Origin: Diphasiastrum complanatum
Taxonomy: Eukaryota; Streptophyta; Lycopodiopsida; Lycopodiales; Lycopodiaceae
DNA length: 64,000 nucleotides
Assembly (NCBI GenBank): GCA_029204225.1
Contig: CM055092.1
Coordinates: 61,937,535 to 62,001,534, forward strand
Reading direction: 5' to 3'
Shown: positions 11,941 through 52,459 of the stretch, one piece after another
Layout of the letters: the number at the start of each line of letters is the position of its first letter
How positions within the stretch are numbered: position 1 is the stretch's first letter
Notes under the pieces: model-generated
The model's database searches: none
Told to the model about the DNA's origin: nothing
Seen by the model: the letters and a program-made list of their open reading frames with translations, nothing else
Program-made: the position numbers and the translations under genes

Positions 11941-12588
11941 TGTGAAAGATCTCAGATCTTTAAGATCCAATCTACTTAAATGATCTTTGGTTAGAAAGAG
12001 AAATACACTACCAATCTCACCAATGTAGAAAAATCAGCATCTGCACACAAAATGAGATGCAAACACTAATAGAATTTGATCAAACTTGAATGAAATGATA
12101 AAGTACTATTGATTTTGATACAAAACCAGCAAGCTACTGTATTTCACATGTGTGGATCCAAAAATACCAACAAATGATCATTCTACACATCGAATTGCAA
12201 GCAATCACCAAGATAGTGCACCAATGGATAGTAGAACCCTAGAGAACCATGTATAAGCATGAAATGAGATAGAGAAGAGAGAAGATTGCTCTCTCCATGA
12301 GTTACATCCTTCTATAGCAGGTCCAAATTCTATTTGACCACTTGGCCTTCCCACCAAAATGCTAACCCTACTATTTTTGGGTCTAGATTCAATGTACCCA
12401 ACTATTCAAATTTGAATCTACTCAAACTCGCATTCTAACATTCCCACACTATCAAAAAGTGTTTATTCAAATGACATTTAGACTGATGAACTTTGAAAAG
12501 TCAATCTCTAAATCTAAAACAAGTTTTGGCCTCCATATGCCAAATATGAAAATATAGCAAAATATGATGAAATTAGTTGAATCTTTCA
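11941..12588 (-). repeat. Copia A1 3' LTR
   Basis: This 648-bp unit starts TGTGAAAGATC and ends ATCTTTCA on the plus strand. It matches the LTRs at 34461-35101 and 61002-61576 over nearly its full length. Shared landmarks include CACCAATGGATAGTAGAACC and AACCCTACTATTTTTGGG. The next bases are the polypurine tract of the element. Confidence 0.9.
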
Positions 12589-22884: not shown

Positions 22885-23090
22885 ACTGAGCGAGAGAGAG
22901 AGAGAGAGAGAGAGAAAGAGGCGTGAAAGAGTGAATGACTGAGCGAGAGAGAGAGAGAGAGAGAAAAGAGCGAGTGATAGTGGGAGACGAGAGAAGGGAG
23001 AGTGACAGAGGAGAGAACGAGAGAGAGATGGGTGGCAGTTCAGCTTCTTCGCTTGCAAAGAACGAGAGAGACGCCACGAAACAGAGAGAC

Positions 23091-24296
23091 ATGGTTGCTG
23101 GTTCAGCTTCTTCGCTTGCAAAGAGATGGAGAGAGGTGCAAGGATCTAGGAACTGGCAAGGGCTGCTGGATCCTCTAGATGTGGAGCTGCGCAGAGAGAT
23201 CATAAGATATGGCGAGTTTGCTGGAGTGCCTAATTGTGCTTTCGACGACGAGCCTCGCTCTCGTAACCTTGGAAACAGTTATTTTAGCAAGCCTGAGCTG
23301 CTCCAACGCTGTGGCCTGCCAAGTACTGGCTACACCATTACCCGCTATATCTATTCCCTCTCAACGAACGTAGACCTCCCACAGTTTATTGTCAAATCCG
23401 TGGCTCAAGACCCTTCTGGCCGAAGCAAAGAATCGAACTGGATTGGATTCATCATGGTGGCGACTGATGCGCAGGAGATACAGAGGCTGGGTCGCAGGGA
23501 CATTGTTATCGTTTGGAGGGGCACCCGCAGAAATCTGGAGTGGTTGGAAGTCATTGAAGCGGAATTGATCCCCATCTCTGCCTCAATTCCGGACCTGAAG
23601 GCGGAAAAAGGATTTTGGAGCTTGTTCACTGACAGTGAGGCCAAGTCCTTGTTCAATAAGAAGAGTGCTGCTCAGCAGGTAACTGAAGAAGTTCAGAGGC
23701 TGGTGGAAACATATAAGAACGAAGAGCTGAGCATCACTTGTGTGGGCCATAGCCTGGGAGCTGCACTGGCTACATATAGCGCTTTCCACATTGCCGAGGC
23801 CAAGAGCAACACCACCTCACAAGCTTCTGATCATCCTGCTTCCATTCCCATAACCGTGTTCACCTGGGGTGGTCCAAGAGAAGGAAACAAAGAGTTCAAG
23901 GACAAACTTGACTCTTTGGGAGTGCACTGTTTGCGGGTTAGAAATGTGAAAGATATTCTGACAGAGGTTCCACCCTCTGCACTGGGCTACATCCATGTGG
24001 GCGTGAAGCTGGAGGTGGACTATGATAAATCTCCTTATCTCAAACCCACTACAAACACAGGAGACTGGCACAATCTTGATGCTTACCTGCACTTGGTTGA
24101 CGGCACTCATGGGCCACAAGCCGACTTCTCTCTGGAGGTCCACAGAGACTTGGCTTTGCTCAATAGGAGTGCTGATCTCTTACTTGACAGCTATTCGGTA
24201 CCAGGCATATGGTGGCAAGTACAAAATAAGGGTTTGGTCCAGGCTAAAGATGGCAAATGGTCTGAGCCTGAGTTAAATCTTGAGCTTTACATCTAA
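23091..24296 (+). CDS. Class-3 lipase, phospholipase A1-II type
   Basis: This is the only intact host-like gene: one exon, 401 residues from the chosen start. PLA1-II enzymes hydrolyse the sn-1 acyl bond of phospholipids and act in the cytosol; no transit or signal peptide is seen here. Evidence in order: AKRWREVQGSRNWQGLLDPL at the N terminus, DIVIVWRGT before the lipase core, the nucleophile elbow GHSLG with Ser221, Asp288 in RVRNVKDILTEVP, and His327 in DWHNLDAYLH (or His334). The C terminus has VNRD-like VHRDLALLNRS and a W-W motif. The family is about 400-420 residues, so this is full length. In-frame ATGs also exist at 23028 and 22935. I prefer 23091 because family homology starts there; upstream codons derive from GA repeats. 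An internal duplication of GGTTCAGCTTCTTCGCTTGC precedes the start. Confidence 0.93.
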   Translation: MVAGSASSLAKRWREVQGSRNWQGLLDPLDVELRREIIRYGEFAGVPNCAFDDEPRSRNLGNSYFSKPELLQRCGLPSTGYTITRYIYSLSTNVDLPQFIVKSVAQDPSGRSKESNWIGFIMVATDAQEIQRLGRRDIVIVWRGTRRNLEWLEVIEAELIPISASIPDLKAEKGFWSLFTDSEAKSLFNKKSAAQQVTEEVQRLVETYKNEELSITCVGHSLGAALATYSAFHIAEAKSNTTSQASDHPASIPITVFTWGGPREGNKEFKDKLDSLGVHCLRVRNVKDILTEVPPSALGYIHVGVKLEVDYDKSPYLKPTTNTGDWHNLDAYLHLVDGTHGPQADFSLEVHRDLALLNRSADLLLDSYSVPGIWWQVQNKGLVQAKDGKWSEPELNLELYI

Positions 24297-28379: not shown

Positions 28380-29123
28380 TGTTGGATTATTCTCTTTCTT
28401 ACTAATCGACTAACCGATTTTAATCCTCATCCATTGTTTATCCAATTCTGCGGATTTTCCCGTGTCTTTACACAGTCTGCAGATTTACAAGTGTTTTTAC
28501 ACAGTCTGCAAAAATACATGGAGTTTGACAACAGTGTCGCATTTTTCACCTGTCAGGAATTGCAGAGTCGCATTTTTCGCATTTTTCAAAGTGTCTCAAA
28601 TGTTTAGAAAATGACTCTGGCAAAGTGTGGGGCTACCCCAATATTAAAGAAATGAGATTTTATGACATTGTCGTCTTTTTTGCAAAAAGCCGACATTGTT
28701 GCCTTTTTGCGACACTCTCACCTGTGGCAGTTTTAGTCCATTTCTGTAGAGTGACAGTTTTAGTTCAATTATGCAGACAGACTGTTTACGCCCAATTTTC
28801 ACCGCTTATTAGCAATCAATTTCTGAGAAGGAACTGGATGAATGCCAGCGGACACCAGCCAACTAGGAATCACATTTGACGACCTAATTACTTAGTATAA
28901 ATCAACTGTTCATACATCTCTTTTTAAATTCTGAAGTTTTTTATCAATAGATCAACAAGTATTGAATAGTTAGCTCTCTCTCTCTCCCAAGCTTGCAAGC
29001 TTGAACACTCCTGAGCATTCTAGCTCACTTCTTAGAGTTGTTTAGAGATTGTTATTGCGCTTACTGCTTATCAGCACTGCGCTTAATTCAGACTTTCATT
29101 TTAGCCGCTCAGAGATAGCTTAG
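28380..29123 (+). repeat. LTR of family B, copy 1
   Basis: It starts TGTTGGATTATTCTC and matches 58693-59308 over about 540 bp. It has a TATA-like box in TTAGTATAAATCA (about 28900) and several GTCGCATTTTT / AAAAGCCGACA blocks upstream of it. After about 28930 copy 2 diverges. A MITE interrupts the text at 29127. The true LTR end and any internal domain cannot be seen. Confidence 0.65.
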
Positions 29124-29499: not shown

Positions 29500-30610
29500 A
29501 TGAGTACGCGACTTCGATCCGCAACTTATTGTACTTATTTACTTTTGTTTCGTTTTCATACTGAATCAATACTATATTTTATTGAGTTCAGGTTCGTCTC
29601 AAAATGTATGCATTTCTGTAGTTCTTCGTGACTAATTATTTTTCTAATAATTCAATGCATTATTGTTTGGCTACGTAGTCACTGTAGTACTGAGACCACT
29701 TGGTTGAGCCATTACCATAAATAATCAGGTATGATTTCAAAGTTAGTTACTATAAGATCGAACGTGATTTCTATCACTATTGTTTTGTTCAAAATTGATA
29801 GTCGTAATCATGCATGAAGAAAGAGGAAGATAGTTTATTCCGCTGCGCACGATAAGGTTTCTTTCTTGTCGTTCGAATTCTTTTTATTTGAATCTTATTC
29901 AACCTATCTTTCACATACCTCTTTCCGACATTTGAAGCTACCAACCAGGCATGGAAGATTAGGATTGGAAGATTCGGCAAAGTCTCTTGACATGATGCAG
30001 AATGAGGAACAGAATAACAGTACAGATGAACAGTTTAGTATTGTGTTTGGCCAAAAAGGTCAAATAGGCAATTTTTTTTGCAAAATAGTGAGTTTGGGCA
30101 AGAATCTGGACAAGAGTAAAAGTCGTAGACAGGCTGATTAAGTATAATATAGTACTCACAAATTTTGATAGAAAATTTTCACTGGCAAAATACTGATATT
30201 TTATTTTTTTTGGAATTTTTTGTAAAGAAAAAAAATTGCAAAGGATGTAATTTGTCAAAGTTTCAGACTGTGAGCAATTTCATGGGATGGTTGACAAACT
30301 CTGAAACTGTAGTTTTGTTGACAAACAAGTTCAATAGTGAAAAAAATGCTTGTTTGACAAAAAACAGAGTAAATATCTGAGACAGAATTCGTAGAGCTAC
30401 CAAAAGATTGATCTTTCATAGATCTAGCCTCAGTAGAACTGGCAGATTCTAAGATGAAGATTTGGCTAGAAAACAGAGGGATTTGACAGTAATACATAAT
30501 CTGAATAGGGTCTGAATTCTAGAGGTGATAGGCTAAAAAAAAATGTTTTGTTAAGGGTGCAGACAGATCATCAAATGATGACAAAAAATGTCACTTGGAT
30601 CACTTCTTTC
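29500..30610. other. Continuation of LTR B region and unassigned DNA
   Basis: No gene is seen. Text at 30040-30500 has TTTTTTTTGCAAAA and TTGACAAAC phrases recalling the G1 leader (1.5-1.8 kb), possibly a diverged piece in the other orientation. Frames of up to 99 codons carry no motif. Confidence 0.35.
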
Positions 30611-31192
30611 AGAGAAAATGCCCAAGTTGACACTTTTGCCAAGTATGGAGGACATGCAAGAAATCTTGGTGAATGAGGAGTTTAGGATTCTATCAAGAGG
30701 AAGATCATCTTCTACATCGCAAGTTGGAGAGGAGGAAGCTATGTTCTCGAAAGGCAATTTCAAGGGCAAAGGCAAAAGCAAGTGGTAAAAGAATTAAGGG
30801 GAGCCTTCTACTTTTGTTGGCAAAAAGAAAGATAAATCCAAGCCAAATTGTTTCTATTGCGGAGTCAAAGGACATTTTGCTAGTGATTGCTTCAAGAAAA
30901 AGAGAGATCAAGGTGAGAAGCAAACCAACCTAACTCTTTATGAAGATGGTGTTGATGAACAACTTTCAAATGATGTTTTTGTTATGTCATCTTGCTTGTT
31001 GGGTAATCATGGAGATGTTGATCCTTGGTGGAGCTACATCACATATGACATATCATGAGGAGTATTATTCATCATTGATGGCATTTGAAGGTGACAAGAA
31101 GGTGATCTACATGGCCAATGATGGTGAGTGTGCAATCAAAGGAATTAGCACAATTCATATTTCCCTCTCTACTAATAGGAATGTGTGAATTT
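30611..31192 (+). pseudogene. Copia A fragment: gag end and protease
   Basis: Reading shifting frames gives LPSMEDMQEILVNEEFRILS, then CFYCGVKGHFASDC (an intact CX2CX4HX4C knuckle at about 30860), NLTLYEDGVDEQ, then WW where IDSGAS is lost by frameshift, and NDGECAIKG. It is the plus-strand counterpart of 15.4-16.0 kb. It ends at about 31190, where unrelated DNA starts. Confidence 0.8.
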
Positions 31193-31337
31193 GACGAGAG
31201 TCATGTTGAGCTAGCCACATAAAGAATGATTTTGCATTGAAGAATGTGTACAATCCACAACTAACACAATCTGTTTGTTGAGAGGACTGCCCAAACAAAC
31301 GTTACAGAGAAAAATGTTTTAATGAACTAGAATATAA
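31193..31337. other. Boundary stretch of the H3-like block
   Basis: This is unassigned DNA between the copia fragment and the palindromic repeats. No motif is seen. Confidence 0.3.
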
Positions 31338-31510
31338 TGAGATATTGTTTCAGCGTGCGAGGTGATGAACGAAATTCTATAAATGTTACAAGTGCGCATT
31401 GAATTGATATTAGAAATCGTAAAGAAAAACAATGAGATATCGTTTCAACGTGCGCCGTTCAAGTCAATTATTTACAAAACAATAAAACGCGCGCTGAATC
31501 AATATCAGAT
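31338..31510. repeat. Palindrome-armed repeats, left pair
   Basis: There are two units. Each starts with an arm ATATCGTTTCAACGTGCG (31340 and 31434) and ends with its inverted partner GTGCGCATTGAATTGATATT (31392) or GCGCGCTGAATCAATATCAG (31489). Units start 94 bp apart. The same arms occur on the other side of the H3-like gene at 33.25-33.58 kb. Confidence 0.7.
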
Positions 31511-31813
31511 TTTAAAATAAGAAAATCACATTTGCATCAATCATCTCCAGTTCCTTGTATGTCATTGCACCCGACATTGAAAAGATTTCAACTAACTTAT
31601 GTACAGGTTTTTTTGCATCTGTGTATGTGCATGATCAAATTCATTTTTATGCACACTGGGTTGCATATGTCATCGTTATTTACATATAATGACAAAACAT
31701 ATAAACTCCAATGGCCATTGCAATGACAAATTGGCAGGTGAGTCTGAATTAAAGTCTAAACAAAATATCTCAAGAAATATAGCATTAGCTAATTTGTGAT
31801 AAAAAAAGCTTAC
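31511..31813. other. Sequence beyond the H3-like coding remnant
   Basis: No supported coding frame. On the minus strand the codons just upstream end AAG-TAA, but the same bases (AAGTAAGTAAGC) resemble a splice donor, so the gene could have continued here in spliced form. Confidence 0.3.
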
Positions 31814-32230
31814 TTACTTGATTATGCATGGTGCCATAATCAACGCTGCTTTTGTTGTCACATTTCTCACGTATCCATCAATATAAGATTTTTGAAAAGC
31901 GGAATAGTGAATACTATTTAGAAAATGGATAGGCGATAGTTCTAATTCTACAAAAATTGGTGTCTGATAATATTCTAGAAAAATCCAAGTAATCCCCACT
32001 CCAACATCGTCCCCTAACATTTTATCTTTATTTTTTAATTCCGATGTGTCTAGCGCAGTCAGGGTATGATTGATTTTAGTACAAAGAGATTGAAAAATGT
32101 AATGCTTGCCGAAAGATTTTAGATAAGTGAAAAGTAATTGATTGTATTGTACATACTTATTAGAATCTACAAAAGTTAATTGAGGAGGGGCGGGAAGAGA
32201 TATAACAGCACGTTTGGAAAAAAAATATTG
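31814..32230 (-). pseudogene. Unknown C-terminal domain of the H3-like gene
   Basis: About 134 codons are open without a stop, ending APCIIK. Readable stretches are LTFVDSNKYVQYNQLLFTYL, LDTSELKNKDKMLGDDVG and FLEYYQTPIFVELELSP. The composition is that of a folded protein, with spread hydrophobics, aromatics and few repeats. I recognise no family. It continues the SPxK-rich frame after a frameshift in one of two poly-T runs (about 32221-32252). It has no ATG of its own near the start, which suggests it is the C-terminal part of the same gene. Confidence 0.5.
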
Positions 32231-32249
32231 ATCTGCACATTAAAAAAAA

Positions 32250-32690
32250 AGTCTAATTCTTCATTAGTAGGACGAGGTGGAGAAGAGAGTTGTGTGGACT
32301 GTTCAATAGATTTGGGAGGAGAGTCAGGAGAGGATTTAGAAAATGATTTTTGTGTCTTGGGAGGAGATTTGGAAGGGGATTTAGAAACTAATTTCTGAGG
32401 AAATTTAGAAAGTGATTTGTGTCTTGGGAGGAGAATTGGAAAGGGATTTAGAAACTGCTTTTTGAGGAGAATTGGAAGGGGACTTAGATAGGGATTCAGA
32501 AATTGCTTTCTGAGGAGAATTGGAAGGGGACTTGGATAGGTATTTAGAAACTGATTTGTGAGGAGATTTAGAAAGGAACTTCAAAGAGTAAGAGAAAGAA
32601 GAGGAAGAGGAAGAAGAAGAAGAAGAAGAGAAAGAAGAAGGGGATGAAGAAGAAGCTAATGGCTTAAGAATAGCCATCACTTTCTTTGGA
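32250..32690 (-). pseudogene. Ser-rich S-P-x-K tail of the H3-like gene
   Basis: The 91-codon frame at 32405-32680 has a Ser run, then repeats such as SKSPHKSVSK and SKSPSNSPQKA. After a shift near 32430 the pattern continues to about 32255 with KSPSKSPPKTQKS and SSPDSPPKS. S-P-x-K occurs at least five times. Such motifs bind the DNA minor groove in linker histones and some H2B tails (established); function here is inference. At DNA level it is an imperfect tandem repeat of about 50-60 bp. It overlaps the end of the histone-fold frame by four bases (TGATG region). Confidence 0.55.
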
Positions 32691-33251
32691 GGTTCTGAGG
32701 ATCTGTTTTGACAACAACATGTTGAACGGTTGTTGGTAGCCTCTTTGGTTCAACCTGTTTCCTCTTTCTCCCTAAAGTGGTGGCAGCAACAGGTGGAGTA
32801 GAACAAGGTGGCCGAAGATTCTGTGCAAATATATCGTACAAATCCCTCATATGAAATATCAACACAAAATCTTTTTGTCTTATTGTTACCCTTCTACCAT
32901 GAACTACAGCTACAACACAATCTGAAAAGAATTTTATTTGAAAATCTTCATAAGCTTTATGTGGTGTTTCAGCTATAGTCACAATCCACCTTACATCTGC
33001 TAAAATATCCCTAGTCCTCTGCTTGATACATCTTTGCATGCGAGCCTTGGGGATCATGAGGTTCATCATTTTTTGAAACCTTTTTAGCCATGCAGGATCT
33101 CTGGGATGACCCACTCTCTTTGGTGCTGCTTGTTGTCTATGAGATGAAGGTGGAGATCAGGTGGTGGTGGAGGTGGTGTTCTTTGTCTAGCAGCACCATG
33201 TATAGGCACTCCGTCTGAGCTGAGCCTTGTTGTCTGCTTAGTCCGTGCCAT
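32677..33251 (-). pseudogene. Divergent histone H3-like gene
   Basis: The frame starting at 33251 begins MARTKQTTRLSSDG; its first seven residues are those of histone H3. K4, R8 and S10 are present, K9 is Leu, and in the later AARQR the K27 position is Gln. After a frameshift in the CCA-rich Pro run (about 33150-33180), a second frame aligns ungapped with the H3 fold: FQK = Y54-Q55-K56, IPK = 62-64, QR = 68-69, D77, D81, R83, F104, D106, H113, then RRVTIRQKD = 115-123, and R131 (about 32847). H113, R116 and D123 of the H3-H3' interface are kept. The length of loop 1 matches H3, not CenH3. A basic GRKRKQVEPKR follows. It looks decayed, with at least three frameshifts at homopolymers or short repeats. 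Confidence 0.78.
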
Positions 33252-33582
33252 GTATTGATTGAACGTGCAAGAGTGTTGTCCCTCGCATGCGAACTGCCTT
33301 TTGTGCATTGAAACGATATGAGAAATCCAATGTCAAGAAGAAGCTTTGGGCAGTATCGATTGGGTGCGCAGAGAAGCTCTAGGCAGTTATGGAGAAAGCA
33401 ATGTGCCCGGTGATTCAATATATGTGTGGAATATCGATTGAACGTGCAAAGATGTTGATAGTAGTGCGGGAGAAAATGGTGTGCACGGTGATTTGATATC
33501 TGGCATGGAGTATCGATTGAACGCATAGAGAGGCTGATGGCAGTGCAAGAGGAAGCAGTGTGTGCACTGAATTGATATCACG
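33252..33582. repeat. Palindrome-armed repeats, right array
   Basis: Four units start near 33253, 33354, 33431 and 33510 with TATCGATTGAACGTGC or close variants. They end near 33320, 33423, 33500 and 33579 with the inverted form GTGCACTGAATTGATATC or variants. The first unit touches the ATG of the H3-like frame, so the array occupies its upstream region. Spacing is about 77-101 bp. Confidence 0.7.
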
Positions 33583-34085
33583 AGTGAGAGAGTGATCAAA
33601 CAAGGAGGTCGTAAAAAAAATTAGGACAAGAATGAGGGTTATAATAGGGAGGATCGGACGCGTTTGCAATCATTAACCTCTATACAATTTGAAATCATGA
33701 CTAGGTACGTGTCAGGTCATATCAGTCTCGAATTTGATGATCATAAATTCTAGGATATCATGGAAATCTGATAATTCTTTTTTAATTTTATCTTGAAATC
33801 ATTACTACCTAGGTGTCATTTCATGAGAGTCTCGACATCGGTGCTCGTAAATAACGGAATCTTGTGCCAATTTTTGTCATGATTACTATTAAATGATCAT
33901 ATTTTTTACCCCACATGTACCTAAATGATGGGTTTTTGTAAAGTGACATAACCTATCCGTTGAAAATCTGTGTATGGCTGCAATTTAATAACGACACCTT
34001 CATATACAAATGAAGAGACAACTCGATTCTTTTTCAGTTTGCAATCTATTTTTCTCTCAGCTTTCTTCCTTTCGGTTCTCCTTCC
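33583..34085. other. Unassigned DNA with a ~115-bp diverged duplication
   Basis: GAAATCATGACTAGGTACGTGTCA (about 33691) recurs as GAAATCATTACTACCTAGGTGTCA (about 33804) with related text after it (AGTCTCGA...). On the minus strand, TATTATAACC near 33640 could be a TATA box for the H3-like gene, but this is weak. Confidence 0.35.
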
Positions 34086-34460
34086 TTGTGGCTATAAGAT
34101 TGCATATCAATATTTGAGCATTTGCATATAGATTTTGAAATAATTAATTTTTTATTTTTATTTTGTCAAAACCTAATTTTGATTGGATATCTAGATAGTG
34201 AGATTACTAGACTTCATTTGAGAGAATTGAGGAGTTTCAAATCTTTGTGATTTCTTTTGAAGGCATTTGTTGTTGTTCAAAGGAGTGCTTTGTGCATTGA
34301 AACAGGTTGAAAGAGAAGATTAGGTCATTGCTACATGGCAACATCAAGTGGAGTCATGTTGGAAACCAATGATAGGCTTACCTGAAGTAGCTATTCATTG
34401 TGGAAAGTGAGGATGGAATCACTTCTTGAGATGAATGATGTTTTGGATATTGTTGTAGGT
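34086..34460 (+). pseudogene. Copia A leader and gag start
   Basis: The leader text (AAACCTAATTTTGATTGGAT, TGCATTGAAACAGGTTG) matches the reverse complement of 60.42-60.7 kb. Gag starts at 34337 (MATSSGVMLETNDRL, then a stop, then SSYSLWKVRMESLLEMND). After 41 codons it runs into the LTR of another copy in the opposite orientation at 34461. Confidence 0.8.
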
Positions 34461-35101
34461 TGTGAAAGTTTTAAGATCCTTAAGATCCAATCACTTGAAA
34501 GATCTTTGGTTAGAAAGAGAAATACACTACCACCAATGTAGAAAAATCTGCATCTACACACAAAATGAGATGCAAACACTAATAGAACTTGATCAAACTT
34601 GAATGAAATGATAAAGTATTGTTGTTGTCTGTACAAAACCAGCAAGCTACTGTATTTCACACATGTGGATCCAAAAATAGCAACTATAGATTATTCTACA
34701 CATAAAATTGCAAGATATCACAAGTAGAGTGCACCAATGGATAGTAGAACCCAAGAGAACCATGCATAAGCATGAAATGAGATAGAGAAGAGAGAACATG
34801 ACTCTCTCCATGAGTTACATCCTTTTATAACAGGTCCAAACCCTATTTGGCCACTTGGTTTTCTCTCCAAAATGCTAACCCTACTATTTTTGGGTCTAGA
34901 TTCAAGGTACCCAACATTCAAATTTGAATCTACTCAAACTCGCCTTCTAACTTTCCCACACTTTCAAAAAGTGTTTATTCAAATGACATTTAGACTAATG
35001 AACTTTGAAAAGTCAATCTCTAAGTCTAAAAACAAAGTTGGCCTCAATATGCCAAATATGAAAATATAGCAAATATGATCAAACTAGTTGAATCTTTCGC
35101 A
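34461..35101 (-). repeat. Copia A2 3' LTR
   Basis: It begins TGTGAAAGTTTTAAG and matches 11941-12588 over its length. The inner edge has TTTCGCA where A1 has TTTCATA. It is followed by a CTCCCTCTTCAA polypyrimidine run, the complement of the polypurine tract. Confidence 0.88.
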
Positions 35102-35739
35102 CTCCCTCTTCAAATAGTTTTAACATGGACTTTGATAACACTCCAAGTGATGTCCTATGCTTCATGAACAAGTCTTTTCCCAATGCTTTGGTGAAGATAT
35201 CAACTACACATTCCCTTGAAGACACATGTTGAAGCTTCACCTCCTTTGCAATGACTTGCTCCCTCACAAAATGATATTGCACCTCAATATGCTTGCTCCT
35301 AGCATGAAAGATAGGATTGGTTTCCAACCTTTGGGCTGATTGATTGTCACAAAAGATTATTGGGCTCTCTGAAAAATCCAGCAAGTGATAGTGGCTTGTT
35401 TCTTCGACATCCATGATATAGCTCCATCACCTATGAAAATACAATGAGCACTAATGGATTTCCTATCTATTACATCTCCAGCATAGTCCAAATCTGAAAA
35501 TCCAAAAAAATTAGGTGATGATCTCTCATACAATATGCCAAAATCTTGAGTTCCAATGATGTACCTCAAAACTCGCTTTCCTAGTTTCCAATGCTCCTCA
35601 CTAGGATCTTGCATGAATTGACTCAATCTTCCAACACAATAGCTTAGATCTGGTCTAGTAATGGTTAGATAGATGAGTGAACCAACTAGCTTCCTATAGA
35701 GAGTAATGTCTTCGAAGGATCTTTCATTACCTCTTATAG
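35102..35739 (-). pseudogene. Copia A2 RNase H and RT end, internally deleted
   Basis: It encodes FCDNQSAQRLETNPIFHA and VVDIFTKALGKD, then after a break WMSKKQATI, SDLDYAGDVIDRKS and MSQFMQDPSEEHWKLGKRVL. Compared with A1, about 108 bp are missing between AAGTGA and GATAGTGG, removing the EAEY motif; TGA microhomology lies at the joint. Homology stops at 35739. Confidence 0.88.
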
Positions 35740-36180
<441 letters not shown>

Positions 36181-36273
36181 GATCTCTAACTCTGAGGAGT
36201 CAAATACTGTGAAAATCAATTTTGGTCGTTTGTCTCTGTCTGTGTTGTATCGGGTCTGGATTGAATTTAATTG

Positions 36274-36277
<4 letters not shown>

Positions 36278-36329
<52 letters not shown>
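36278..36329. repeat. (TA)n microsatellite
   Basis: A pure TA run leading directly into the 30-bp tandem repeat. Confidence 0.97.
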
Positions 36330-36331
<2 letters not shown>

Positions 36332-36745
36332 TATATGTATATATATGTAGATATATATAGATATATGTATATATATGTAGATATATATAGATATATGTAT
36401 ATATATGTAGATATATATAGATATATGTATATATATGTAGATATATATAGATATATGTATATATATGTAGATATATATAGATATATGTATATATATGTAG
36501 ATATATATAGATATATGTATATATATGTAGATATATATAGATATATGTATATATATGTAGATATATATAAATATATGTATATATATGTAGATATATATAC
36601 ATATATCTACATGTATATGTAGATATATATACATATATCTACATGTATATGTAGATATATATACATATATGTATATGTATATGTAGATATATATACATAT
36701 ATGTATATGTATATGTATATATATATACATATATGTATATGTATA
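36330..36745 (+). repeat. 30-bp TA-rich tandem repeat and derivatives
   Basis: Nine near-perfect copies of a 30-bp unit (key text GATATATGTATATATATGTA) span 36330-36600. Less regular units with CTACATGTATATGTAG follow to 36745. Because 30 is divisible by three and the unit lacks stops in several frames, long Tyr/Ile frames (147, 188 and 111 codons) arise; none is a gene. Confidence 0.95.
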
Positions 36746-36875
36746 TATGATGTTGCAGATCAGCAACTATAGTATGATGGAAATAATCAACTTCATGTGT
36801 TACCTAGAAGATCTTCAAGGAGTAGCAGACCACCTAACTAGTATATCAATGAGTCTGCAGTTTATCTTGTTCAAG

Positions 36876-36940: not shown

Positions 36941-38158
36941 AATGACCTTGTGTTATTCTAGTTTACAATTACAAGATCATTAATAGCTGTTAATTGATTA
37001 ATAGATCGGATATTGATAGAGCGTGAAGACGTAGACAGGCTGTACGCAAAATGTTGTGTAAATCTGTAGTTTGTCTTATCTTTTCTCACTCTTGGTTTCT
37101 CACTTTGCATTTTCTCTCTCTCTCTCTTTGATCTCTCACTTCGCATTTTCTAGAAGTCGAACTTTGTGGAGGCCTATATTTCCACATTTTCCAAATAAAT
37201 TGTTATATGTTGTAAATTGCACATGTAAATATGCGATAGTGCCTAATTCCATGTAAAGGCCTATTTGCACTTTAGTAATTCATTGTATTAAAGACTCGCA
37301 ACATTTTAAAGCGACATCTTAGAACAACATGTAGTTGTTCCCAACCAATATCCTAACGGTTGGTGAGCGACACCTTGAGCCTGATGTACGTCTCTATAAG
37401 AGCGACACTCAGCGCCATTGTACACACGTAGATTTTTATTATCAATAGAGGAGAGAGAGCCAGTTTTCCTTATGCTTGTGCATTCCTTTTCTCTGACTAT
37501 TACAACTACACTTCTTATCAATTGAGCGAACACACTCTGAGCTTTTCTGTAACTGTTCTTATACATGTCTGTCTGCGGCACTCCTTTCATTGTGTACCGA
37601 ATTTCAATTGCTACCGTGGATTTACAAGCGACATCTGTGGAGATACAATTCTAACTGATTGTGTGCAAGGAATCGGCCGAAGCTATTAAGCATTTACATA
37701 ACCAGGATTTCTATTATTTTTGAATGAGTTTACGTGCTTGGATAAAGAACAAAATTGTTGTTCTTTCTTTACTACTTTCTAGTGATCTTGTGCTCATCAA
37801 GAGAAATCAATTGCCTACTAGATTCTGTTTTGTGGGATCTATTTGCTTGTCTCTAACAGATAATTGCTTAATGTTATCGTGTTGCCTGGAAGATAACGTA
37901 CCTCTCTAAAATTTCAGACCTTGACCAAATAGTTTCATGTTGGTGTTTTTGGATGCCAATCTACACAATATCTTTGGATAACCATATATGTCATTGTAGT
38001 ATGTGATTCTGGATATTACATTCTTCACTCACTCCATTACCCTTTCTACACTTATCAATCCAAAAGAGCAAATTTGTCTCTCTCTTGGGGAACGATAAAC
38101 CTTTTATATTACACATTTTACAGATTTTGTGGAAATCTATAACAACTAGGCTACCACA
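36936..38158 (+). repeat. Gypsy G5 5' LTR (approximate start)
   Basis: The right end, CTACCACA at 38158, is fixed by the primer-binding site 5 bp further on. The left end TGTTGAATGACC is inferred. Inside, CTCTATAAGAGCG (about 37393) is a good TATA box, and GCGACA and GAGCGACAC phrases recur. No second copy is in the window. Confidence 0.55.
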
Positions 38159-48009: not shown

Positions 48010-48671
48010 CTTTGTAATCAGAAACATTTTGTTTCTTCAAGCTTATTTCATTTAGGTGTTGCTAAAGGTAACAATATCACTTTACCAGTGCACTATAAAT
48101 CTTATTTATCCGTATAAGCCATTCTTGATAGTGGCTCTAGCGTGAATATTATCGCCTGTCCTTATCAAAGACATGGGGAATATCCACATTGGAAAAGCCT
48201 AAGTACAAATTATGTATGGTTGACCAACGAATGACGACACCTGCCGGTCACATAAGCAATTTGCCAATCAAAATTGCTGGTTTGATTTTTACCATATAGT
48301 GTGTCGTACTAGATTTTCCTGATGAATTGCACACCTATCAATTCCTTCTTGGAACACCTTGGTTAGCAATGGCTAGAAAAAGATTGGAAGAAAAAAAAAA
48401 TTGTTTTTTGGCAACAGAGATAGAAGAATCTCTGTCGATGCCACCGGAAAGATAAAGCCTACACCCGTTGAAGATGATTGGTCCTCAACTATCTATGGTT
48501 ACCCCGATAGTATTGATTCCACCATAAAGGGTCGTTACGTGCAGAGTACCAATATCATCAATTGGGGACATGCCTTACTGACCATCGATTGTGTCAATGC
48601 CACTCTCTGTGCGCAAGAAGTTCACCAAGAAGACCCAATTGAAATCACTATACACACCATAGATATCAAAT
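48010..48671 (+). pseudogene. Gypsy protease fragment (G4)
   Basis: Read in shifting frames: AILDSGSSVNIIAC (retropepsin Asp box, about 48115), TPAGHISNLPIKIAG, and YQFLLGTPWLAMA (about 48350), the closing protease motif. A 90-codon frame follows to 48673 with a short acidic Trp/Tyr-rich part. It differs from the G2 and chromovirus proteases and ends exactly where the chromovirus knuckle begins, so this is a recombination joint. Confidence 0.65.
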
Positions 48672-48810
48672 GATTTTGAGAAAGCCAAACAAGAACGTTT
48701 GTGCTTTGTGTGTATGGGCAAGGGACACACAGTCAGACAGTGTCCCAAGGGGCTTTTCACTGAAAAAGATAAGAAAGATAAAAAAACAAGTTCATCTTGT
48801 TCAGACTGTA
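48672..48810 (+). pseudogene. Chromovirus gag zinc knuckle
   Basis: A frame at 48672 reads [17 protein letters not shown] (CX2CX4HX4C), then [14 protein letters not shown] and a stop. The protease frame follows shifted relative to it. It is the only remaining part of this element's gag. Confidence 0.8.
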
Positions 48811-50931
48811 CGTTTCCCCAGTGACTCGGCAGCTTCCGAGATCAAAGTGTATCATGAAGATCATGAACACTGTTGCCAGCTGACCTCTGCAATGCTAGCG
48901 AGACCCTTCAATTTTGGGCCGCATGACCTAGTATGTATGCATGGGAAAGTTGGTGACCAGTCAGTAAGAGTCATGGTTGATGATGGGGCAACCCATAATT
49001 TCATCAACCACACCCTGGTTAAAAAGCTTAAACTAACAGAAGTACCTAGTCAGCATAGGTACATAGTTTCATTAGCTAAGGGTGAAGATAAAAAAATATG
49101 GGAAACTATGGTAAGTAAGTTAAATCTTGGTATTCAGGGGTACCAAGATGAGATAAACTTTCAGATAATGCACCTGGATCGAACATACATTGTTCTCAGG
49201 AGAGATTGGCTCTACAGTTTAGGACCTTCCCTCCACAGAAACTATCAGGAGAACACCCTCAGCTTTCAGCATAGGGGCCGAGGGATCCAGTTGCATGGGG
49301 AGCATGATGTTCCCAACAGCCCTATGGTCTGCAGTTCAGAGCTATGTCAGCTAATCGGAGACGAAGACCATCAGGTATTCTTATGTGACTTTCAGTTTAT
49401 TCCTGAAGTTTCTATTTCCAGTTCTATTCAGCAGAAAATCAGTAAATTAGAAACTTTGTTGTCTAAATTTAAAGATGTTTTTCCTGAAGATTTACCACAT
49501 GGTTTACCACCTAGCAGAGAGGTAGATCATGTAATAAACCTAGTACCAGGTATAGCACCTGTTTCTAAACCTCCATATCGGGTTAGCCGAACAGAGGATG
49601 AAGAAATAACTAGGCAGTTAATAGACTATCTTGGGAAAGGCCAAATTCAGACCAGTAGTTCACCATGGGCCTCACCAGTCCTATTGGTGAAAAAGAAAGA
49701 GGGGTCTATGCGTCTTTGCGTAGATTACAGAGACCTCAATAAAGTCACAATTAAGAATAAATACCCTATGCCTCGGGCAGACGAGTTGTTTGATCAACTC
49801 GACGGGGCTAAGTTTTTCAGTAAAATAGACCTCAGATCGGGATATCATCAAGTCCATATAAAATCGGAAGATGTCTCGAAAACAGCTTTTAGGACTCGTC
49901 ACGGTCATTATGAGTTTAAGGTGATGCCATTTGGGCTCACAAATGCTCCAGCTACCTTTATGACCTTGATGAACAGTGTCCTCAGACCATACTTGGGTAA
50001 GTTTGTAGTCGTATTTTTAGATGACATCCTCGTATACAACAAAACGAGGAAGGAGCATCTAAAGCACCTCAAAAAGGTGTTTCGACTGCTCAGAAAGCAT
50101 AAGCTCTATGCTAAACAATCCAAGTGTGAATTCTTCGTTGAAGAAGTAGCATATTTGGGTCACACTATCTCTTCAGATGGGATTAAGATGGACCCAAATA
50201 AGGTTAAAGCCATACTCAGTTGGCTGAGACCTCAGAATATTTTGGAACTTCAAATCTTTCTTGGTCTGGCGGGATATTACAGACGATTTGTCAAGGAATA
50301 TGCTCAGATAGCAGTCCCTATGACAAATCTCCTTAAGGGGAAGGAAAAGGAGTTCATTTGGGAGTCCGCACAACAGGAGAGCTTTGATGCTCTCAAAACA
50401 GCCTTAGCTACAGCACCAGTTTTAAAAGTCGTCGACCCCAATCAGCCATTTGTGGTCGAAACAGATGCTAGCGACTTTGCAGTAGGTGCTGTGCTAACTC
50501 AGGGTGGACGACCAGTTGCGTTCGAGAGTAAAAAACTCGAGCCAGTTCAGACTAGGTACAGTGCCTATGAAAAGGAACTCTTTTCTATAGTCCATGCCCT
50601 TAAGACTTGGAGGCATTATTTGTATGGTGCCAACTTTGAGGTCTTGACAGACCATGAGAGTCTCAGATACCTTTGCAATCAACCTGAGCTTAGAGGTCGG
50701 AAAGCTCGTTGGGCAGACTTGATACAAGAGTTTGACATGTCTATCACATATAGGCGTGGAAAATTCAATACAGTAGCAGATGCCCTTAGCAGAATGCCTA
50801 TGATAAACGAACTGAGTTTTACTCAGATTCGTAATGAGTTACTCGAGTCCTTGAGAGGGAAATGCCAGCATGATGCATTCTTCTCTACTATCTGGAACTC
50901 AGTCCAGAGCAGACAGTTGCAAACTCCATAA
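48790..50931 (+). pseudogene. Chromovirus protease, reverse transcriptase, RNase H
   Basis: The long open frame extends from about 48670, with native sequence from about 48800. Protease: [16 protein letters not shown] (about 48980). [48 protein letters not shown] and [11 protein letters not shown] (about 50020), all key Asp residues present. RNase [15 protein letters not shown] (about 50460), [12 protein letters not shown] and [10 protein letters not shown]. It ends at a TAA (50929) in frame with the integrase, probably one change from a sense codon. The element is 5' truncated. Confidence 0.93.
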
Positions 50932-51964
50932 CCAGTTCCCGGGGCTGGTGCCAGTTCATCCAAGAATATGGCAGCTTCCGTTGAGGATGATGATGAGTCC
51001 AAGTATACGTCGTCAGATGACATTGAGGATTCGGAGCTTGTATTACCCAAGCAAACCCCAGTGGTTGAGGGTCAGCTGACTCAAGGATTCAAATGGAAAC
51101 TGTATTCCATTCAGGATGAGTACTTGCTCTATAGAGATAGAGTATGTGTCCCCAATTCAGAGGATTATAGGCAGCAAGTCCTATATGAATGTCATGACAA
51201 TCCTAGTGCGGGACACGTAGGCATACAGAAGACCTATGAGCTTCTTCGTAGGCAATTTTTCTGGCCCAGTATGGAAAAAGGACGTCCACCAGTATGTAAC
51301 CAGTTGCCAGAAATGTCAAGTAAATAAAGCAGAGCGTTTGAAGGCAGGAGGGTTGTTGCATCCCTTAGAAATACCAGCTGGTAAATGGGAGAGTATCTCC
51401 ATGGATTTTATAGTAGGCCTGCCTAAAACCCAAAAGGGTAATGACGCTATATGGGTCATAGTTGACCGTCAGACCAAAATGGCTCATTTTATTCCGACCA
51501 AAACAACCGTTAGAGCTCCAGAGTTAGCGAGGTTGTTTGTAGACGGGCTATTTAAATTGTACGGTCTACTTTCCGGCATAGTCAACGACCGGGATAGTAA
51601 GTTTACTGAAAATTTTTGGAGGGCAGTATTCCATCATCTCCATACTAAACTTAATATGAGTACCACCGACCATCCACAGACGGACGGTCAAACAGAAAGG
51701 GTAAATCAAGTGCTGGAGGATATGCTTCGTGCATACGTCAGCAAGAAGCAAACTAATTGGGAGGAGTATCTCTCGATATTAGAGTTTGCCTACAACAGTA
51801 CCAAACATTCAGCTACGAGATATAGCCTATTTACGCTGATGTACGGTTTTCAGCCACGCTCACCCACAGCTGTAGGGTTTAAACAAGAAAAAGTTGAAGC
51901 AGCCAGAAACTTTTTAGAGGACCTAAACCAGATGATAGAACATGCTAAGCGTAGCATTAGATAG
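50932..51964 (+). pseudogene. Chromovirus integrase
   Basis: The N-terminal part (50932-51300) shares the RT frame: CVPNSEDYRQQVLYECHDN, with the His pair in CHDNPSAGH. A frameshift at about 51260-51300 separates it from CQKCQVNKAERL. The core has SMDFIVGLP, VNDRDSKF and GQTERVNQVLE, so the D-D-E triad is complete. A TAG at 51962 interrupts SIR-stop-SQDRARHYAD. Confidence 0.92.
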
Positions 51965-52459
51965 TCCCAGGATCGAGCCAGGCATTATGCAGATCCACAC
52001 AAACGGGATGTGCAGTTCTCCACTGGTGAGAAAGTCTACTTGAGAGTCCCAGTTGACTCTAAAACCCTCAAATCAGGAGTGTGTGCTAAGTTGTCTCCAA
52101 GGTATTGTGGTCCCTTTACCATCAGTAGGAGACTAGGCGAGGTCACCTATGAACTAGAACTCCCACACAACAGTAAGGTTTTTCCAGTCTTTCATGTAAG
52201 TCAGTTACGAAAAGCCTTAACCAGATCAGACAATTGGGTAAGGGACAATGTTCTAGTTCTCCCATTGGATCCTCAACAACCTCCACATGAACCAGAGGAG
52301 ATTCTTGATAGTAGAGAGACGCAGACTCGTCATACTCTATACCGAGAATATCTGGTTAAGTGGAATGATCAGCCTGTTGAGAATGCCACTTGGGAAAGAG
52401 GCAGCGTCCTTCACAGGATTTTTCCAGACTTTGTCTTAGAGGACCAAGACGGTTCTTAA
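51965..52459 (+). pseudogene. Chromovirus integrase C-terminus with chromodomain
   Basis: After the TAG the same frame continues: GEKVYLRV, LSPRYCGPFTI (GPY/F module) and VFHVSQLRKAL, then a chromodomain REYLVKWNDQPVENATWE at about 52345-52400. Chromodomains steer integration toward particular chromatin (established for chromoviruses). The 149-codon frame is intact. Confidence 0.92.

Follow-up and report, generated by a model that had tools for sequence, protein, structure and literature searches.

The closest described case of a histone carried by a mobile element comes from Dothideomycete fungi, in which an H3 gene without introns was taken up by a hAT transposon and now stands in hundreds of copies. 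In the available excerpts of that source, 784 H3-like sequences are given for P. fijiensis, and the H3 amplification in Pyrenophora tritici-repentis is said to have left many transcriptionally active copies (PMC6710886). A Helentron in Culex is described as carrying broken histone H4 and H15 gene fragments (PMC4067079). With H3 capture published for fungi and H4 and H15 fragments for a mosquito, as far as these excerpts go, histone capture is not in itself new; the open-licence PubMed Central literature, in the portions available, yielded no plant case of a transposon-carried histone. Two further systems are relevant for their noncoding repeats. CACTA elements, as excerpted, have repeats of 10-20 bp near their ends, in both orientations, which the element's TNPA protein binds, and they often capture host sequence (PMC8195511, PMC2613891). 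VANDAL elements are described as having arrays of short motifs in their noncoding parts, which are bound by the element's own VANC protein, a remover of silent marks (PMC5735166, PMC10398659, PMC13317346).

Here we describe an unusually built gene derived from H3, genuine but apparently decayed, that is bracketed by arrays of paired sites (Table 1). It lies on the minus strand of the window, by which we mean the whole 64-kb stretch of DNA that was analysed. An earlier note on this DNA had reported an ATG-started MARTKQT tail and, one frameshift away, an ungapped match of about 78 residues to the H3 fold. Frame translation bears out both, with tail and fold one frame apart and H3 positions 54-131 aligned without gaps to the 159-aa frame at 23/78 identical residues.

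Table 1. Coordinates of the gene pieces and flanking sites in the window.
Feature	Position	Strand	Motif sites	Remarks
ATG and H3-like N-tail MARTKQTTRLSSDGVPIHGAARQRTPPPPPP	33160..33251	minus		ATG at 33251-33249; frame open as far as 33087
159-aa open frame	32680..33156	minus		H3 fold (residues 24-104), then basic stretch GRKRKQVEPKR
Continuation in a different frame	32408..32689	minus		Ser run and four SPxK motifs
Continuation after another frame switch	32251..32418	minus		three SPxK motifs
141-aa C-terminal open frame	31814..32239	minus		TAA stop (31814-31816)
Upstream dyad module 1	33250..33321		33250 (-), 33302 (+)	touches start codon
Upstream dyad module 2	33351..33423		33351 (-), 33404 (+)	
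Upstream dyad module 3	33429..33501		33429 (-), 33482 (+)	
Upstream dyad module 4	33508..33580		33508 (-), 33561 (+)	
Downstream dyad module 5	31340..31412		31340 (-), 31393 (+)	
Downstream dyad module 6	31435..31507		31435 (-), 31488 (+)	
Putative TATA-like site TATTATAA	33639..33646	minus		upstream of right-hand array, by eye

The H3 descent of this broken coding sequence is evident from several comparisons. A phmmer search of the PDB matched the 159-aa frame to its best solved H3 chain at E 3.8e-9, with the alignments shown ungapped, and the Pfam histone profile (PF00125) agreed at E 6.2e-5, although its 23.7 bits fall below the Pfam cut-off of 26.4 bits. The comparison of the shifted frame with shuffled sequence, preset as a test, gave scores of 110 against H3.1 (best shuffle 54) and 122 against Arabidopsis CENH3 (best shuffle 59), using reference histone sequences that were, here and in the tree below, entered by hand; neither score was matched by any of 2000 composition shuffles, the best of which reached about half. 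Fold residues retained in the H3 alignment are K56, K64, R69, D81, R83, E97, F104, D106 and H113, followed by R116-I119, K122, D123, L126 and R131, and thus include all five that had been named as conserved (R83, H113, R116, K122 and D123). Leu stands at the K79 position, and the alphaN helix (RPGTVALREIR) and the C-terminal RRIRGERA are unrecognisable in the same alignment. Single-sequence structure predictions had mean pLDDT values of 41.9 and 29.3, too low for use.

As read from its letters, the H3-like tail is shortened and keeps ARTKQTxR and AARx. Aligned by eye on these motifs, ARTKQTTR corresponds to ARTKQTAR and AARQRTP to AARKSAP; K4 is retained, K9 is replaced by Leu and K14 by Val, and AARK27 reads AARQ, in agreement with the earlier reading of K4, K9 and the K27 equivalent. 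The survival of ARTKQTxR is notable beside so diverged a fold. That the product would have been unable to carry K9 or K27 marks is true by the letters. However, no lysine lies between K4 and the Gln of AARQ (by eye), so K9 and K27 were lost as part of a wholesale loss of tail lysines, which gives no support to selection against just these two marks.

The gene continues well downstream of the fold. Open frames reach 31817, which is 860 bases past the end given before, and ATG to stop spans about 478 codons, a path that changes frame four times and meets no in-frame stop. The extension contains seven SPxK motifs in frame translation. Its 141-aa C-terminal piece had no match in Pfam, NCBIfam or the PDB; a single NCBIfam hit (E 0.16) was at chance level. 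In the 1461-bp region, the four longest open stretches (159, 141, 134 and 114 aa) all belong to the minus strand and together cover what follows the tail, with the 134- and 114-aa stretches overlapping. In 1000 dinucleotide shuffles the longest frame reached 159 aa in nine cases and the third-longest reached 114 aa in one. GC by codon position is 0.50/0.42/0.30 in the 159-aa frame, and third-position GC is 0.21-0.32 across the five pieces, in four of them lower than at either other position.

Both flanks of the gene bear arrays of a 20-bp motif, approximately TGCRCGTTGAATCGATATCN. All 12 sites in the 64-kb window fall within 31340-33580 (8 upstream and 4 downstream of the gene) and score at least 18.8 with a matrix trained inside the locus, against 14.4 for the next site. 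Motif orientation alternates strictly and forms six inverted pairs, spaced 52-53 bp from start to start in 6/6 modules. Since modules 2-4 lie within one 78-79 bp tandem repeat of three copies, their common spacing is not independent evidence.

A matrix made from the eight upstream copies ranked the downstream copies as the top sites of the window (22.5, 20.3, 19.6 and 17.3; next 14.8). The best site of each of 100 shuffled windows scored 13.5 at the median and 19.3 at most, and five of these windows reached at least 17.3, never with two sites per window; the weakest downstream copy is therefore within chance and the other three are beyond it. Because the eight upstream copies had first been gathered with the help of the downstream ones, we repeated the search using only 20-nt slices of the upstream three-copy tandem repeat as matrices (n = 55). 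Eight slices, at offsets 0-3 and 51-54 and thus over the motifs, placed downstream copies among their top four sites outside the repeat, and with slice 54 the top three were all downstream copies. The remaining 47 slices gave a weak match (11.3) near 31347-31350 in two cases and none in 45. Against the specificity of the arrays, a site outside the locus at 37515-37517 was best for slices 51 and 52 and second for slice 53. Between the upstream and downstream clusters the motif is 57-60% identical and the spacer 25%; within the upstream cluster the plus-strand motif (40% identical, ungapped) scores below the spacer (46%), as three of the four modules are one tandem repeat.

Folding of the modules as single-stranded DNA paired the outer arms in 3/6, and none clearly outperformed shuffles (z -1.22 to 0.78), which makes candidate paired protein-binding sites a likelier reading than stem-loops. 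Past the TATA-like site, at 33689-33852, are two 60-nt direct repeats 104 bp apart and 75% alike, which might be part of the same element's end. Further along, a long AT-rich array with 10-bp periodicity forms long inverted repeats (36145-36750).

The arrays resemble the subterminal repeats of CACTA elements or the arrays targeted by VANC, which favours the view that the gene was mobile-element cargo. We tentatively read the locus, at somewhat less than an even chance, as the decayed copy of a gene of about 478 codons that encoded an H3-headed chromatin protein and was most likely carried by a mobile element with dyad arrays in its noncoding ends. The idea of a captured H3 in a mobile element had been put forward before; arrays on both flanks and the fungal precedent speak for it, and the missing element ends speak against it. 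A search for terminal inverted repeats with target-site duplications of the CACTA, hAT, MULE, PIF and Tc types found none. CACTA termini sought between 30400-31345 and 33575-34700 gave three weak pairs that all lacked a matching 3-bp duplication, and no convincing pair of hAT termini with an 8-bp duplication was present around the gene. Pfam recognised no transposase domain in the five gene pieces, and the 64-kb window contains no second copy of the H3-like gene. The locus is not assigned to any element family, and we infer the element's mobility, the protein that would bind the dyad sites and an effect on silencing.

Relatives were also sought among proteins, in a database that includes plant proteins. 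The core drew 27 candidates, none at E 0.001, and the C-terminal piece three, none of which was accepted; these searches covered lengths of 0.55-1.75 times the query, which shuts out full-length relatives near 478 aa and makes the absence of relatives weak evidence. An alignment search scored the 7988 candidates with most words in common, all of them below 1e-5. Among the best 120 of these, the six sequences that were read proved to be canonical H3 in tandem pairs, and the top 15, ranked by similarity to the core and not to the extension, contained none that stood out.

A host-lineage H3 variant that diverged, gained the C-terminal extension and died, with the arrays as promoter and 3' regulatory repeats, is possible but unlikely. 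The TATA-like site seen by eye upstream of the right-hand array would fit such a promoter, and neither a transposase nor terminal repeats were found in the searches above. However, an inverted-pair module of equal spacing on both flanks is unusual for a promoter, and the low identity of the fold and the unmatched 141-aa piece are unlike a host H3.

The histone from which the head derives could also have been centromeric CENH3 and not canonical H3, a derivation that we consider doubtful. In bit scores the core is closest to Arabidopsis CENH3 (39.4), with which it has IP, RW, FSD, HxRRVT and KDF in common, and lower values were obtained for Arabidopsis H3.1 (33.5) and H3.3 (31.4). Yeast H3 is equal at 39.3 bits, however, and human CENP-A (22.9) and maize CENH3 (18.0) score least. 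The best tree, built with nine references entered by hand, places the core by plant CENH3, and the AU test on the same set gave p = 0.66 for plant CENH3, 0.51 for human CENP-A and 0.14 for H3, yet retained every placement. The longer loop 1 of the CENH3 type is absent from the core, whose loop is two residues shorter than in Arabidopsis and maize CENH3 and equal in length to that of H3. ARTKQTxR and AARx in the tail are likewise missing from the hand-entered Arabidopsis and maize CENH3 tails. This H3-length loop together with the H3-like tail favours canonical H3 ancestry.

The four frame changes are present in the DNA sequence here, and the gene is presumably intronless. We think it quite improbable that the gene is intact in the organism, with the frame changes being assembly errors or partly introns. 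The path free of in-frame stops would agree with an intact gene. The stretch of frame change 4 contains a run of 8 A and borders a run of 9 (plus strand), whereas the overlaps of changes 1 and 2 are without a run of five or more identical bases and that of change 3 has one run of just five. Homopolymers, which the earlier note had wished to see checked as a source of the frameshifts, are thus confined mainly to change 4, and assembly error could explain this change but hardly all four. By eye, a branch-point-like TACTAAT and an acceptor-like TGCAG lie near change 4 and a GTAAGT overlaps the stop codon, and there may be an intron there. At change 1, by contrast, a tail of near-H3 length (by eye) leaves little space for one.

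Copia-like remnants occur on both sides of the gene, which had been described as lying among dead retrotransposons, but these are not one enclosing element. Self-comparison of the window located such pieces to the left (28380-28924 and 30624-31184) and right (34088-35739) of the gene, related to elements at 12-16 kb and 58-61 kb; the copia label is a reading of frames, and two such pieces compared with Pfam had no match. These related pieces on both flanks could indicate that a cellular H3 was carried by an LTR retrotransposon belonging to the adjacent remnants. We regard this as very improbable, as the pieces conflict in orientation on either side, similarity is 70-72% for the nearest left piece as against 85-96% for the right pieces, and the self-comparison revealed no LTR pair enclosing the H3-like gene. 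Within 34221-35388 there is a junction at about 34453-34461, where a copia-like 5' part in one orientation meets a 3' part in the other, and copia-like matches also break at 11941, 58276 and 61002.

Other genes were recognised in the window. A plus-strand retrotransposon (48643-52459) has an aspartic protease, reverse transcriptase and RNase H in one long frame and a chromodomain at its 3' end (PF00385, 2e-8), and comprises four frames split by two in-frame stops and one frame change. An open 453-aa frame on the plus strand (22935-24296) encodes a class 3 lipase domain (6.1e-30), with an ERERER stretch at the N-terminal end; it was the only host-type gene recognised, in the course of a survey that was not systematic. 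Gene types such as these, along with the view of the earlier note, suggest that the window is plant DNA. Some large DNA viruses carry histone genes, yet the viral capture raised by the earlier note finds no support, and derivation of the H3 from an integrated large DNA virus is extremely improbable given surroundings of retrotransposon and lipase genes; viral contigs, scanned three times with 2, 7 and 125 pattern matches, yielded no confirmed relative, weak as such scans are for so divergent a protein.

If the gene was indeed cargo of a mobile element, its product could have acted against silencing. Paired with a host H4, the product would join chromatin by way of its H3 fold and hold on to DNA with its SPxK tail. 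An element protein, either the H3-headed product or a lost partner, would bind the dyad sites, and the element's ends would thereby be kept in chromatin unable to bear K9 or K27 marks. In its strongest form, to which we assign a low probability, a mobile element of plants had a functional histone of its own: a captured H3 would have become an element-specific, SPxK-tailed protein at the dyad arrays, forming particles that keep K4, are without the K9 and K27 methylation sites and resist silencing. Plant anti-silencing factors of the VANC type bind the motif arrays of their own element and remove silent marks. A histone supplied by the element, if real, would be a different anti-silencing route that alters the nucleosome itself, and the novelty would lie in a rebuilt H3 with an extension, flanked by dyad arrays. 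The motif and the geometry of its pairs make sister copies directly searchable.

Compared with known systems, the head resembles canonical H3 (H3.1 and H3.3) in its ARTKQTxR and AARx tail, its ungapped fold and its R83, H113, R116, T118, K122 and D123. It differs in the low identity of the fold (23/78), in the replacement of K9, K14 and K27 with no other lysine before K27, and in a broken gene with a long C-terminal extension in which the alphaN and C-terminal end of H3 are unrecognisable. To plant CENH3 it is tied by a similar score and by the IP, RW, FSD, RRVT and KDF of the Arabidopsis protein, and is set apart by a loop 1 without insertion and an H3-like tail.

Likenesses to CACTA (En/Spm) elements, as these are excerpted, are a bidirectional motif of 10-20 bp, copy numbers that differ between the two ends, portions rich in GC and in AT, and capture of host sequence (PMC8195511, PMC2613891). 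The 12 motif copies here, arranged as 6 inverted pairs over the two flanks, may be subterminal, though no element ends were found to place them by; the locus also differs in that the searches gave no CACTA termini with a 3-bp duplication and no transposase domain in the five gene pieces, and its stem-loops are no better than shuffles. With VANDAL and VANC it has in common noncoding motif arrays, growth by tandem repeats and tandem repeats within the protein (PMC5735166). VANC21 motifs, in contrast, are 9 bp long and in a single orientation, whereas those here are 20 bp and strictly alternating, and the available text does not describe VANC as a histone (PMC5735166).

The Culex Helentron is similar in holding broken pieces of histone genes within a mobile element in several copies, but these are H4- and H1-type fragments, 83-84% like their parents, in an element family that has been described (PMC4067079, as excerpted). 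A C-terminal extension and dyad arrays are absent from the published transposon histone captures compared, to the extent of the excerpts available. The fungal hAT-captured H3 comes closest, with H3-derived, broken, intronless copies in a mobile element (PMC6710886). In the portions of that source at hand, the fungal elements are documented with a hAT transposase, with terminal repeats and with 8-bp duplications, and their copies consist of nothing but H3 and are mostly truncated (PMC6710886), whereas here neither element ends nor a transposase were found and the gene has a C-terminal extension and dyad arrays.
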